Shown piece by piece: positions 53,521-59,505 of a stretch of DNA of 64,000 nt. Below the pieces are notes generated by a model. That model did not search any database. It had not been told where the DNA came from and saw nothing but the letters and a program-made list of their open reading frames with translations. This DNA comes from Cellulosimicrobium cellulans (lineage in GTDB: Bacteria; Actinomycetota; Actinomycetes; Actinomycetales; Cellulomonadaceae): contig NZ_JAMXST010000006.1 of assembly GCF_024124905.1 (NCBI RefSeq), forward strand, positions 1 to 64,000, in the 5' to 3' direction. The first letter of the stretch is position 1. Each line of letters opens with the position of its first letter. The translations under genes and the position numbers were made by a program.

Positions 53521-53961
53521 TCCCCTGGTCTGCCGAGGTAGAGCCGTGGTCACCGTGCTCGACGGCGTGTGGTCGAGTTGGGTGGGCGGGGTGGGTGGTG
53601 GTGCCGCGTCTACCATCCGCCGCTCGTTCCTCGCGGCTCCCGCCAGGCCCGCCACGACGCGGCACCACCACCCACCCCGCCCGCCGTCGTCTCGCCCTGG
53701 TGTCTGCTCACGCGGGCGGCTACCCTGCGGTGCCCGTTCGCCTGCGCCGCGGCGGACGACCCGATCGCGTTGCGCTGCCCGGACGTCGTCATTTTCCCTG
53801 CTCATCCGATGCGTGTTGGTTTCAATGACGTCGGCGCTGAACGGGCGCTGCTCGCCGGGAACGGAAAACAGACACCAAGGCGGGCCAACCGGTGTGCATC
53901 GAGCCCACCTGTTCACGAGTGGGCACGGGTGGGAACGGCGCCGACGCCTTAGCATCGCCGC
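53521..53961. other. 441-bp region between lacI and the KAP-like NTPase gene
   Basis: Its first part holds a half copy of the GAGGTAGAGC palindrome (53534-53552) and copy C of the 45-nt-core element (53581-53685). From about 53760 the base composition falls (CATTTTCCCTGCTCATCCGATG and onward), as in the following gene, so the junction of an acquired segment may lie near 53690-53760. No reading frame is convincing. Confidence 0.5.
53581..53685 (+). repeat. 45-nt-core hairpin element, copy C
   Basis: The 30-bp arms 53581-53610 and 53656-53685 are complementary at 29 positions with one G-T wobble. Next to the core they read GTGCCGCGTC and GACGCGGCAC, quite unlike copies A and B. The core 53611-53655 differs from copy B at a single base. 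It begins 60 bp after the LacI stop, in the same orientation as that gene. Confidence 0.85.
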
Positions 53962-56900
53962 ATGCCAAAGCGCGAACGCAGCTCGAACGGCGCCCGTCCG
54001 CTCCCGTTTGAGTTCAACCTGCTGACGCCGGCGTACGAGCCGGCGCACCACGAGATCTACCTGAGCCTGCTCGACGCTGCGCTCGCGGAGCCGGACGTCC
54101 GGAATGTTGCACTCTCCGGGGCATACGGCACTGGGAAGAGCAGCGTCCTCGTCGGGCTAACCGAGGCCTACTCCCAGGAGGAACAAGGTGTCCTCGCCAG
54201 GCTCACAAGGATCACAACGGCCAAGAGGCACAAGTCGCTGAACATCTCGCTGTCGAGCATGGGTCTTGACACCACAGCGGATCTGACGAACCAGATCCAG
54301 AAAGAGATCGTCAAGCAGATCCTCTACACCGTCGCGCCTGCGAAGGCGCCACGCTCCCGCTTCGACCGGACCTCTCGCGGACGGAAGCGAGACGGCCTGC
54401 TCCTGGCGGCGCTCGTCGGCGCTGCGGTAGCCGCGGCTGCCACGCTCGGGCGGAGTATTGGCTCGAGCGTCGTGCACGGGTTCTCGAACCCTACGCTCGC
54501 GTTCGTAGTCACGTTCCTGCTCTCCGGCGCCATCGCCTACCTAGTGCGGCGGATGATGGGTGGCCGCGTGTCGGTAGACCAGGTGGCGGCAGGACCAGCG
54601 AGCATCTCGCTCTCGCGGGCCCCGACCGCAAGCTACTTCGATCAGTACCTCGACGAGATCGTCTACTTCTTCGAGGTCACTCAGTACGACCTCGTCATCT
54701 TCGAGGACATCGACCGGTTCGACGACACAGGGATCTTCGAGGCGCTGCGCTCGCTGAACACGCTGCTGAATTCCGCGCCGCAACTCCGCCGCAAGCCGGT
54801 ACGGTTCGTGTACGCGATGCGCGACTCACTGTTCCAAAAGCTCGAGGATGACCTGAAGGAACCGACGGCCCATCCGGACGAGGCCGCCAAGTCGCACAGC
54901 GGATATACGGCGACAAAACCGCATGACGTTGCAGCTCAGGACGTCCAGCGGGCCAACCGGACGAAGTTCTTCGACGTCGTGATCCCAGTCGTCCCGTTCA
55001 TCACTCGGGAGAACGCCCGGGACATCATGACAAGGGCCTTTCGCGCCGATGGATTCGGCGTCAGCGATCGCCTACTGAACATCGTCGCCCGGCACATCGC
55101 GGACATGCGGCTCGTGACCAACATCCGCAACGAGTTCAAGGTCTTCCACCATCATCTCATCGCCGGCCCTCACCCGGTCCCCGAACTGGACGCGGACAAG
55201 CTGCTTGCGGTGGTCGTCTATAAGAACGTGCATCTGCAGGACTTCGAGAAGATCCGATTCGGCACGAGCAACCTGGACGTTCTCTATGAGCTCGGCCGAG
55301 ACCTCGTCACCCACAACGTCAAGGAGCGGACGCAGCGCATCCAGGACCTGCGCGCCGCACTTGCCAACCAGGACGCTGCGACGTACCGCAGCGAGATGCT
55401 CGGCCGCCGGCTTCACATTGTGATGGGCGACCTCAGCGCGCAGATCACATCACCGCCGTACAACCAGGCCGTGCCGCAGGATCTCCTCACGTCGACAGAA
55501 TTCTGGCGCGACGTATCCGCAGGAGTCAGCAAAGCATCTGTTGCGACGCGCCACGGGTCGTGGCCAATAACACCCCAGCTCGCGGGGGTGTTGCTGAACG
55601 AGCCGCTGACAGCAGAGCGCTGGGACACGCAGGCGCGTCCACAGATGGAGCGTGAACTCGCGAACCTCGAGCGGACCGTAGCCACGCTTTCCCGCGCGAC
55701 CTGGAAAGTGCTCTTCGGGTCCCCGAGAACGCCAACCGCGTCCGGGGAGACGTTCACGGACGCAACGCGGCGCATCCTCGGGTCCGAACTCGCCGCCGAC
55801 CTCGTGCAGCACGGCTACCTGGACGAGTACTTCAGCCTGAACATCGCCCCGTTCTACGCTGAGCAGGTCTCCCTCAACGCAATGAACTTCATCCAGCGGA
55901 ACATCGACAGGGGCGTTTCAGACCTGCTGTACGAGCTGACCGACGCTGACGTCAGCGCAGTCTTGAGCGACCGCCCGAACGCGCTCGAGGACGTGGGCGC
56001 CTACAACGTCACCCTGCTCGACCACCTGCTCACAAAGGCGCCGCACCATGCACGCACCGTCATCACGAATGTCGCGAAGATGGGCGCGGAGGAGATCGGG
56101 ATGCTGTCCGCATACGTCGAGTACGGAAGCATGCCCGGAGAGTTTGTCGAGCAACTCACGCCGTTGTGGTCTTCGATTCTCGCCTACCTGACCGAGGACG
56201 TCCGCGTTGATGTCCCGCGTCTTCGGGGCATGGTCGACGCGGCGCTCAGAGCCTGGAGCGACGAGGTCACCTATGAGCTCGGCTCAAGCGTGCGCTCGTT
56301 CATTGAAGCCGACTACCGTCAGCTGACTTCCCTCTGTGGTGCCAGTTCAAACCGCAGGGCGGCCGAGCTCGCGGTGAGCGCGGGCGTCATCTTCGCTGAC
56401 CTCGACCCCGTCGGGGAAGAGGCGCTTGCGCCCATAAAAAAGGCGCGGGCTTACCCAGTGACCGCCTCCAACCTTGCTCGTGCCACAGGGCTCTCATCGT
56501 TCAGTCTCGATCGCCTCGCCGCAAATGACGACGTCGTGCACGCGACCGTCCTGGACCGCCTCAGTGAATATCTGCATGCGACAGGGAGCGAGCCGACCGT
56601 CGAGGACCCCGCCACGTTTGCCGACGTCCTGGGTGACGTCGCGAACCTCGACGAGGCACTCATCGGTGCCGTCGTGGCGCGGGCGAACCCGGAGTGCGTG
56701 CTTGACGATCTGACTGCCTCGCCACCGAGCACTTGGTCGGCGCTGGCATCACACGGACGCTTCGTGCCGAACGTCGCAAACCTGAACGCGTACATCTTGA
56801 GCCGGTCGGTCGACGCCCCGCTGGTAAGTCTGATGGAGACGAAGGGCCCGATCGTTGACTGGGATGAGTCTGAGACCTCAAGGGCCGTCGTGGTCGCTAT

Positions 56901-57597
56901 TGTGGGAGCCTCCGAAGCGATCCCCGACCCGGCACAGCGAGTCGACCTAGTGTCGGAAGCCCCGGTCGCACGGCGCCTCGCCGGAAGTGAGATCCCGGAC
57001 GAGCGGACAAGCATTGTGAGGATGCTCCTCGAGCACGACCTCGTTGACGACGCGCCAGCAACCTTCGCGCCCACCGCGCTCTCTGACCCCGACGCCTTCG
57101 CCTCCGCTGTCGCGGCCTCCGAGGAGTTCCGCACCTTCATGTCACCGGCTGTGCTGACGGTCGACCGCGTCGACGCGCTCATGCGTCACGACGAGGTCGA
57201 CGACACGATCAAGCGCGCAGTCGTCGCCGACCTGCGCTCGTACCTCGCCGGTGCGCCCGCCAGTGCATGTGTCGCGCTAGCGGAGTACAGCCTGAGCCAT
57301 GACTTGGTGCTGGACGAGGCGGAGCTCGCGACTCTGCAAGGCAGCATCCCCCCGTCCCTGATGGTCCGGCTCCTTGCCGGGTCCGACCTCGCCGGGGGCG
57401 AGCTTGTCCCTCATCTGCGTGCTCTGGGCGGGGTGTACGCAGACCTGGTCGAGCACGACGGTGGCAAAGTACAGCTGCCGGAGAACGAAGTTCACGCGCA
57501 GATTGCCAACCGGCTGAAGGCCGCCGCAATCGTCTCGCGGGTCCGGAGAGACGGGAAGGGGAACCTGAACGTGTGGCGACACGTCGAAACGAGCTAG
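53962..57597 (+). CDS. KAP/YobI-like P-loop NTPase with membrane insertion, candidate defence protein
   Basis: This protein has 1211 residues. Walker A GAYGTGKSS is at residues 53-61 (Lys59) and Walker B YDLVIFEDIDRFDD at about 242-255. Between them lie two hydrophobic helices (about 144-163 and 177-197), the feature that defines KAP-type NTPases (Kidins220, PifA) and the related YobI-like ATPases. A sensor-like RFVYAMRDSLF and an arginine-containing VVPFITRENARDIM follow, then about 750 residues of helical repeats without a known domain. PifA excludes phage T7, so a membrane-linked defence role is plausible but not shown. Codon use is less GC-biased than in neighbouring genes (ATA, ACA and TGT occur), it stands alone, and its start lacks a clear ribosome site. 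These are signs of acquisition. Confidence 0.75.
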   Translation: MPKRERSSNGARPLPFEFNLLTPAYEPAHHEIYLSLLDAALAEPDVRNVALSGAYGTGKSSVLVGLTEAYSQEEQGVLARLTRITTAKRHKSLNISLSSMGLDTTADLTNQIQKEIVKQILYTVAPAKAPRSRFDRTSRGRKRDGLLLAALVGAAVAAAATLGRSIGSSVVHGFSNPTLAFVVTFLLSGAIAYLVRRMMGGRVSVDQVAAGPASISLSRAPTASYFDQYLDEIVYFFEVTQYDLVIFEDIDRFDDTGIFEALRSLNTLLNSAPQLRRKPVRFVYAMRDSLFQKLEDDLKEPTAHPDEAAKSHSGYTATKPHDVAAQDVQRANRTKFFDVVIPVVPFITRENARDIMTRAFRADGFGVSDRLLNIVARHIADMRLVTNIRNEFKVFHHHLIAGPHPVPELDADKLLAVVVYKNVHLQDFEKIRFGTSNLDVLYELGRDLVTHNVKERTQRIQDLRAALANQDAATYRSEMLGRRLHIVMGDLSAQITSPPYNQAVPQDLLTSTEFWRDVSAGVSKASVATRHGSWPITPQLAGVLLNEPLTAERWDTQARPQMERELANLERTVATLSRATWKVLFGSPRTPTASGETFTDATRRILGSELAADLVQHGYLDEYFSLNIAPFYAEQVSLNAMNFIQRNIDRGVSDLLYELTDADVSAVLSDRPNALEDVGAYNVTLLDHLLTKAPHHARTVITNVAKMGAEEIGMLSAYVEYGSMPGEFVEQLTPLWSSILAYLTEDVRVDVPRLRGMVDAALRAWSDEVTYELGSSVRSFIEADYRQLTSLCGASSNRRAAELAVSAGVIFADLDPVGEEALAPIKKARAYPVTASNLARATGLSSFSLDRLAANDDVVHATVLDRLSEYLHATGSEPTVEDPATFADVLGDVANLDEALIGAVVARANPECVLDDLTASPPSTWSALASHGRFVPNVANLNAYILSRSVDAPLVSLMETKGPIVDWDESETSRAVVVAIVGASEAIPDPAQRVDLVSEAPVARRLAGSEIPDERTSIVRMLLEHDLVDDAPATFAPTALSDPDAFASAVAASEEFRTFMSPAVLTVDRVDALMRHDEVDDTIKRAVVADLRSYLAGAPASACVALAEYSLSHDLVLDEAELATLQGSIPPSLMVRLLAGSDLAGGELVPHLRALGGVYADLVEHDGGKVQLPENEVHAQIANRLKAAAIVSRVRRDGKGNLNVWRHVETS

Positions 57598-58225
57598 CGA
57601 GAGCCGCGCGCAGAGCCAAAGGACTGCTCACTGGGGCGCAGCGCCCGCGATCTAGCTATGCGTTCTGTGGTCGGACCGCCGTTTACGAACCAGACCAACA
57701 CGGTTGGTGTACCTGGCCTCCGTGTAGATCCCCGCCGCGCAGACAAGCTCGGGCCGCGGCCAGTCGCTGGGTGGGAGTCGCCCGTCCGCCGCCCGCTCAC
57801 TGCCGGGCGAGCGCAGGTCGAGGTCGGCGCCGACTGTGCTACGGGCGTCGGGCGCGACGGCGAAGTGCGCCGACTTGCTGCGGGGCTCAAGCCCAGTTCG
57901 TCGGAGCCGCGGTTGCTGTCGGCGCCACCTCGTGTTCGCTCCGGTACGCCCGACGAGTCGTCCACGGATCTCCTTACGCTCAGACCTACTCGCGCGCGGG
58001 TGGGCGCAGCGAAGGCGGATTGGGGTGACTCTGGTCGCCTGGGCTTGGCTGGGTGCGGGAGCATCACGTCGCGATAGCCGCAGCAGGCCCGATGCGCGGC
58101 GATGATCGCCGGTCCGGCGCCCTCCACGACCGCCGTCGCCCGTTCCAGTAGCGGCGCCATCGACTCTGGCGCGATCGGAGCCGTCGAGTCCTCTCCTCGA
58201 CCACGGTTCTCCCTCGGCGGAGGGT
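57598..58225. other. 628-bp region without a supported gene
   Basis: Short open frames exist on both strands, but none has a ribosome site with a family-like product. GC content is still slightly below that of the flanking xyl genes, so this may be decayed DNA from the same acquired segment as the NTPase. I see no tRNA, att-like direct repeat or strong terminator. Confidence 0.4.
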
Positions 58226-59467
58226 TCAGTCCTCGGCGACCCAGGCGCTCGGGTCCTCGACGACGCCGCGCAGGACCTCGCGCGCGCCGCCGGTGAGGGC
58301 GGCGTGGTCGCCGACCGGGGCGGGGACCAGGACGACGTCCGTCCACGGGGCGGCGAGGACGCGCGTGCGCAGCTCGGCGTCGGCCGCGCTGCGCAGGTAG
58401 GGCAGGAGCGCGGGGTAGATGCCGCCGAGCAGGACGGTGTCGATGTCGACGAGGTTCACGTAGTCGGCGAGCGCGCTGCCGAGCGCGGTCCCGGCCCGCT
58501 CGACGGCGGCGAGCGCGCCGGGCTCCGCGGCGTCGAGCGCGGCCACGAGCGCCTCGGTGGGCGCGTCGACGGGCAGCCCCGCCCCGCGCAGGAGCGCGTC
58601 CTTGCCCGCGTACTGCTCGAGGCAGCCGGTCGCGCCGCAGCGGCAGCGCGGGCCGCGCGGGTCGACGACGACGTGCCCGACCTCGCCGGTCCAGCCGTGG
58701 CGTCCGTGGAACAGCCGGCGGTCGACGACGATCGCGGACCCGATGCCGACGTCTCCGGACACGTAGAGGTAGGTCGACGGCGCCGCCTCGGGCGCGGGGT
58801 CGGACGCGTCGTCGGCCACGACGCCGTGGCTCGCCTGGGCGAGCGCGGCGAGCTTGGCCTCGTTGCCGATCTCGACGGGGACGTCGGGGCCGAGCCCGAG
58901 GAGCGGGCCGGGGTCGAGGTGGGACCAGCCGAGGTTGGGGGCGACCTCGAGCCGCCCCGCGCGCGTGTCGACGAGGCCGGGCAGGGCGAGGCGGGCGCCC
59001 GCGACGGTCATGCCGTCGGCGCGGACGCTCGCGAGGAGGTCCTGCGCGATGCGGCCGAGCCGCGCGAGCACGTCGGTGGGGTCGCTGTCGTGGAGGTCGT
59101 CGGGGTCGACGTGCTCGGCGACGACGGCGCCCGTGAGGTCGAGCACGCGGCCGCCGAGGTAGTCGACGTTGACCTCCAGGCCGAGCCCGACGATCGAGCG
59201 CGGCGCGGGGGCGAGGGGGACCGCGGGCCGGCCGGCGCGCTGCGGGGTCGCGGGCGGGAGCTCGGCGACGATGGCCGCGGCGACGAGGCGGTCCACCAGC
59301 GTCGAGACGGTCGCGCGCGTGAGACCGCTCGACGCCGCGATGTCGGCGCGCGAGCACGGCTCGGCGGACTCGAAGACCGCGCGGGCGACGAGAGCGAGGT
59401 TGTGCTCGCGCAGCGTGGCCTGCCGGGCTGCTGGGGGACCCGTGCGGGTCGCGACGCTGCGGTTCAC
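58226..59467 (-). CDS. xylR: ROK-family xylose repressor
   Basis: This 413-residue ROK regulator has a winged helix-turn-helix at about residues 15-70 (ATLREHNLALVARAVFESAEPCSRADIAASSGLTRATVSTLVDRL). The ROK sugar-kinase-like core contains GLGLEVNVDYLGGRVLDL, GNEAKLAALA, SGDVGIGSAIVVDRRLFHGRHGWTGEVGHVVVDP and the zinc motif CRCGATGCLEQY. It is divergent from xylA, as for XylR in many Gram-positive bacteria. The GTG at 59467 matches the family; an ATG at 59503 would add 12 residues and overlap the xylA operator. Repression of xylAB relieved by xylose is expected. Confidence 0.88.
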   Translation of the reverse strand: MNRSVATRTGPPAARQATLREHNLALVARAVFESAEPCSRADIAASSGLTRATVSTLVDRLVAAAIVAELPPATPQRAGRPAVPLAPAPRSIVGLGLEVNVDYLGGRVLDLTGAVVAEHVDPDDLHDSDPTDVLARLGRIAQDLLASVRADGMTVAGARLALPGLVDTRAGRLEVAPNLGWSHLDPGPLLGLGPDVPVEIGNEAKLAALAQASHGVVADDASDPAPEAAPSTYLYVSGDVGIGSAIVVDRRLFHGRHGWTGEVGHVVVDPRGPRCRCGATGCLEQYAGKDALLRGAGLPVDAPTEALVAALDAAEPGALAAVERAGTALGSALADYVNLVDIDTVLLGGIYPALLPYLRSAADAELRTRVLAAPWTDVVLVPAPVGDHAALTGGAREVLRGVVEDPSAWVAED

Positions 59468-59471
59468 GGTC

Positions 59472-59505
59472 TTGACCTTACCGACCCGGGCGGATAAGTT
59501 CATCC
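59472..59505 (+). promoter_or_regulatory. xylA promoter with imperfect palindromic operator
   Basis: TTGACC (59472-59477) and TAAGTT (59495-59500) lie 17 bp apart. GGATAAGTTCATCC (59492-59505), with outer arms GGAT/ATCC, overlaps the -10 box and is the best XylR-site candidate. Transcription would begin near 59507, leaving about 60 nt of leader before the xylA GTG. Confidence 0.55.

Follow-up and report, generated by a model that had tools for sequence, protein, structure and literature searches.

The window, a 64,000-nucleotide stretch of Cellulosimicrobium cellulans DNA, carries near its right end an intact open reading frame that encodes 1211 amino acids, starts with ATG and has no internal stop. 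The features that we place at this locus are listed below, with the basis for each in brackets.

53523..53751, no strand assigned: copy of element C, a high-copy repeat of the genus (genus genome matches)
53531..58214, no strand assigned: insert relative to the empty site of the same-species genome G007 (L027), which has 27 bp instead (site alignment)
53532..53551, plus strand: left-end 20-bp repeat unit, in opposite orientation to the right-end unit
53752..58205, no strand assigned: insert of ≈4.5 kb relative to a relative that has the repeat and lacks the gene (L046, G005; site alignment)
53950..53955, plus strand: TAGCAT, a −10-like box beginning 12 nt before the ATG (TANNNT enrichment)
53962..57597, plus strand: Tmn-like/YobI-ATPase gene, 1211 amino acids (ORF, Pfam, PADLOC, profile homology)
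54058..55275, plus strand: YobI-ATPase domain PF20693, residues 33–438 (Pfam)
54118..54144, plus strand: Walker A motif GAYGTGKSS, residues 53–61 (motif, conserved in the alignment)
54385..54447, plus strand: predicted transmembrane helix 1, residues 142–162 (hydropathy, structure model)
54490..54558, plus strand: predicted transmembrane helix 2, residues 177–199 (hydropathy, structure model)
54691..54714, plus strand: Walker B motif LVIFEDID, residues 244–251 (motif, conserved in the alignment)
55837..57594, plus strand: C-terminal α-solenoid, residues 626–1211, the presumed sensor (model with a mean pLDDT of 91.8; homology to the Tmn-side C terminus)
57598..58205, no strand assigned: tail of the insert with no called gene (gene caller)
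58199..58218, minus strand: 20-bp repeat unit at the right end

The nearest relative of the encoded protein is 69% identical and comes from another genus of the same family. Over 1189 codons, the two genes differ by 264, 181 and 464 changes at codon positions 1, 2 and 3, with dN of 0.21, dS of 0.72 and dN/dS of ≈0.29. Judged by these substitutions, the frame is under purifying selection, which argues against a chance ORF. A preliminary description of this DNA had remarked on a codon pattern of lower GC than in both neighbours, and the difference is borne out by a GC content of 64.3% as against 69.9–78.3% in five neighbouring genes, and of 81% as against 97–99% at the third codon position. Upstream of the start codon, TANNNT occurs at the spacing of the −10-like box in 7 of the 27 family sequences, the window included, as against 19 of 361 other genes (p = 0.0009 by Fisher's test, a value that ignores relatedness), with loci L105–L112 serving as promoter background here and otherwise only in the 34-locus tally given below. 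This enrichment at a fixed spacing makes a leaderless transcript from a putative promoter plausible.

In the same-species genome G007, which has no match to the gene, the flanks of the corresponding site align to the window with 99.6% identity along 3532 alignment columns and 99.8% along 4286. In the more distant relative G005, the site contains the repeat element and no copy of the gene. The comparison with G007 alone leaves the direction of the change undecided; since none of the other 15 genomes of the genus has a match, the pattern favors gain of the gene at this site rather than its loss in G007. The repeat and the gene-free stretch flanking the gene had been taken as marks of a defense island. 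A copy of element C does lie ≈190 bp upstream of the gene, but the element is a genus-wide repeat with 15 to 114 matches per genome, partial ones included, across the 17 genomes of the genus, and so it says nothing about defense. The element is ≈200 bp long and contains a 30-nt near-perfect inverted repeat (53581–53610 and 53656–53685). The gene-free stretch likewise exists according to the gene caller (57598–58225), yet mechanically listed ORFs overlap it. The pieces of the insert's tail that recur elsewhere among the 17 genus genomes are short, ≈70 bp at most, and the plasmid collection yielded no match to the tail. A third copy of the 20-bp unit in the window means that the two bracketing units need not be the mechanism of insertion. 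LacI and ROK genes both flank the site in 11 of 16 relatives, at gaps of 55 bp to 1.6 kb. Among four of these gaps read by eye (L049, L052, L055 and L057), two hold arabinofuranosidase ORFs and two hold ORFs for MerR-like regulators, which points to a permissive, variable site. At the far left of the window, positions 1–136 and 277–412 form a 136-nt direct repeat with 97% identity.

The protein matches the Pfam family YobI-ATPase (PF20693) at an E value of 2e-101 and 340.6 bits, against a curated cut-off of 27, over positions 1–362 of the 363 in the profile. Of the label KAP/YobI-like in the preliminary description, only the second half is retained, as KAP is absent from the eight Pfam families found at E up to 1, a search in which HMMER filters may hide weak matches. 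The PADLOC model for Tmn is matched at E 3.6e-53, with the best stretch joining residues 18–295 of the protein to positions 26–327 of 1273. The same PF20693 domain is present, at E 4.5e-104, in WP_032232022.1, a protein of an E. coli plasmid annotated as “anti-phage transmembrane ATPase,” to which the window protein is 31% identical over residues 33–454. The known relative to name is thus Tmn, also called TmnA, rather than PifA, which had been proposed earlier. PF20693 matches also occur in three control genomes including that of Bacillus subtilis, and two of the three exceed the cut-off. The YobI protein of B. subtilis, presumably the name-giver of PF20693, shares this family with the window protein; to our knowledge it has no tested function, and none of the papers listed in literature searches dealt with YobI.

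The resemblance to Tmn extends beyond the NTPase domain. A profile built from 26 family sequences matches the single Tmn sequence WP_032232022.1 over residues 15–706 (E 8.2e-49), and it matches a profile of six Tmn-side plasmid proteins end to end, over 8–1222 (E 5.8e-94); of those six rows, only WP_032232022.1 bears the anti-phage annotation, and it may not be the protein that was tested. The lengths are similar as well (1211 and 1273 amino acids), and both proteins are mobile. In PMC11846954, Tmn is assigned to the KAP-family NTPases and its two transmembrane domains are called unusual; it was tested in E. coli and inhibits T2, P1, phiVi and phiX. The window protein matches that description in having two hydrophobic helices that separate Walker A from Walker B. 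The differences are that the ≈31% identity pertains to the NTPase part only, that the far C terminus is recognized only with profiles on both sides, and that the window protein belongs to a separate clade, mainly actinobacterial in our sampling. In a tree of 37 NTPase domains, 31 rows including the window protein are split from the six Tmn-side rows with support of 100/100, in a midpoint-rooted topology for which the tool warns of long branches. The window protein falls outside the clade of annotated enterobacterial Tmn, and by this placement it is Tmn-like, a member of a sister clade and not Tmn proper.

The layout of the NTPase core and its membrane hairpin agrees with the preliminary description, which had two transmembrane helices within about 180 residues between Walker A and Walker B. 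The linker measures 182 residues in the window protein and 164–192 across the 26 aligned sequences, of which the window protein is one; in every one of them, the linker has two and only two hydrophobic peaks. Across the whole window protein, 19-residue windows above 1.6 on the Kyte–Doolittle scale start only at residues 144–148 and 177–179. Residues G53, G58, K59, S60, D249 and D251 are invariant in all 26 sequences, and a P-loop core is present in the structure model, the outcome for which a structural check had earlier been proposed. The alignment omits L009 (a fragment), L035 (a split frame), L089 (uncalled by a GC-based gene caller) and loci L105–L112; L029 duplicates the contig stretch of L002 and went uncounted. 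With either model, Foldseek searches of the PDB found nothing at E ≤ 0.001. The best PDB sequence match of the family profile (E 0.006) covers the P-loop alone, which counts as a difference from RdrA of RADAR, BrxC of BREX, STAND and ORC/Cdc6 ATPases; having a fold in common with them would show no function.

The C-terminal part had been described as helical repeats that match no nameable family. On profile evidence it is an ARM/HEAT-like solenoid homologous to the C terminus of the Tmn-side proteins: residues 626–1211 by themselves match the six-row Tmn-side profile at E 2e-23, so the earlier statement does not hold. Against the single Tmn sequence, the same residues gave no significant match (prob 0.4, E 0.14). 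Mean pairwise identity in the 26-sequence alignment is highest in the core (51–56%), lower in the C-terminal half (23–32%) and lowest in the hairpin (19%). A conserved core joined to a divergent C-terminal half fits a conserved motor with a variable sensor.

At a threshold of E 0.001, with this genome counted in every tally and a few matches being fragments or weak, a match was found in 1 of 17 genomes of the genus (two of which are less than 90% complete). Wider samples gave 18 of 221 genomes for the family, 18 of 396 for the order, 9 of 394 for the class and 3 of 396 for the phylum. The gene is therefore far from universal, which answers the earlier question of whether homologues sit in conserved housekeeping loci of most relatives. 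Relatives occur on 633 plasmid records, 480 of them predicted to be conjugative and 7 with coverage of at least 80%, as well as in 11 loci on predicted viral contigs; the annotated phages that we searched gave no match to the window protein. Plasmid copies from Lelliottia and Enterobacter group with an actinobacterial chromosomal copy (L092, L096 and L032; support 98/92), and this grouping suggests transfer between phyla.

A survey of homologue neighborhoods, proposed in the preliminary description, revealed known or candidate defense genes near at least 8 of 16 loci by PADLOC, a lower bound as 29 of the 99 neighboring proteins were scanned singly with PADLOC and some with Pfam. Strong matches comprise restriction-modification genes near L030, L032, L035 and L036, the candidate systems PDC-S53 near L034 and PDC-S65 near L005, GajA near L003 and Old near L006. 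The 99 neighbors matched 237 PADLOC families, versus three families with one member each for 44 control genes of the window, sets that differ in size and of which the controls include some wrong frames from the gene caller, such as an antisense frame of the ROK gene at 58304–59497. By the same three single-member families among the 44 control genes, no defense system lies beside the gene in this window. In a second set of 10 proteins from 6 of 11 loci, we found a type III system at L082 and only weaker helicase matches at L086. Restriction-modification genes are present at 5 of 34 usable loci. At three of the 34 (L030, L032 and L082), hsdR or a type III res gene precedes the Tmn-like gene on its own strand, with spacings of 9, −4 and 19 bp; at L036, a 73-amino-acid ORF lies between the upstream hsdR or type III res gene and the Tmn-like gene on the same strand, and at L035 the Tmn-like gene is convergent with a type I system. 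The Tmn-like gene and the restriction gene upstream of it may possibly form a restriction back-up unit.

The gene behaves like defense cargo, being patchy in its distribution, absent from the same site in a strain of the same species, present on plasmids and viral contigs and found near defense genes. Together with the P-loop core, the patchy presence and the defense neighborhoods of homologues favor the earlier suggestion that this solitary membrane NTPase is a candidate anti-phage gene. We predict, with a probability of roughly 0.75, that it is a horizontally gained, single-component anti-phage NTPase of the Tmn type. By homology, it is most likely a phage-defense gene of an established type and not a novelty: such systems are already known, and what the locus adds is a sister clade found mainly in actinobacteria and a clean presence/absence difference at the strain level.

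Other explanations account for parts of the same evidence. The target of the defense could be plasmids or other mobile DNA instead of phages, or the gene could serve contests among mobile elements, as might be expected from its plasmid-borne relatives, from those in predicted viral contigs and from the toxin-antitoxin genes close by in 4 of 11 plasmid stretches examined. Anti-phage genes are often plasmid-borne anyway. Tmn itself acts on phages, according to PMC11846954, and we regard this explanation as improbable. A recently landed passenger, unexpressed or decaying, would agree with the GC content below that of the neighbors and with relatives that are split or carry a stop (L035; G1270 and G027). 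The intact frame, its dN/dS relative to the closest relative and the −10-like box kept at the same place in that relative all speak against such a passenger, leaving this reading more improbable still.

Two further readings have very little probability in our estimation. PifA, a P-loop NTPase with two transmembrane helices between its Walker motifs, invites the reading that the window protein is a KAP NTPase of that type that blocks phages as F-plasmid PifA blocks T7. The window protein shares this layout, but the KAP family is missing from its Pfam matches, YobI-ATPase is found at E 2e-101 in its place, and Tmn-side proteins account for the whole length. The KAP label is also used for Tmn itself in PMC11846954. 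The gene might instead have a chromosomal housekeeping or envelope role and nothing to do with defense, given that aconitase adjoins the homologues at L083 and L084, dnaB adjoins L028 and topA lies ≈2.4 kb from L087. Against this, 16 of the 17 genus genomes, including the one of the same species, have no match, the order has a match in 18 of 396 genomes, and the tree scatters members of one family; the pattern of presence and absence largely refutes a housekeeping role.

For a Tmn-type defense NTPase, we can outline a membrane mechanism of sensing, assembly and membrane failure, to which we give slightly less than even odds. The NTPase would rest on the inner face of the membrane, and its variable solenoid would sense infection by being bound by a phage product or by responding to a phage-caused change. 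Nucleotide exchange might then let the ATPase cores assemble, by analogy with ORC-like and STAND ATPases, upon which the transmembrane hairpins would switch and open or distort the membrane. The membrane would fail, and the infected cell would stop before phage release and spread. The title of a 2026 preprint reportedly mentions plasmolysis. The mechanism of Tmn was called unexplored in 2025 (PMC11846954). With the present locus, a Tmn-like protein is placed among actinobacteria, outside the clade of annotated enterobacterial Tmn and with signs of inter-phylum transfer, and a thick-walled monoderm would be a useful second system for comparing how the membrane step works.

A more far-reaching and, in our view, unlikely proposal is that the actinobacterial clade comprises separate membrane-anchored immune receptors whose solenoid reads other phage signals than that of enterobacterial Tmn, and which repeatedly come to stand at the end of restriction operons, as a back-up that is triggered once restriction has failed. 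Beside the window gene itself, a restriction partner of that kind is absent.

Several individual loci show further features. L083 and L084 come from different families, are close in the tree and both lie beside aconitase, and this site may be a shared integration hotspot. The dnaB gene beside the closest relative of the window gene (L028:3915–7499) has an intein that includes a LAGLIDADG domain. In a Klebsiella plasmid of type IncFII (L101:649–3221), genes annotated as AAA family ATPase and UvrD helicase are found near the Tmn-like gene, with vapBC pairs on either side; synergy between Tmn and Gabija has reportedly been observed, and a Gabija-like pair formed by the AAA ATPase and UvrD would fit it.
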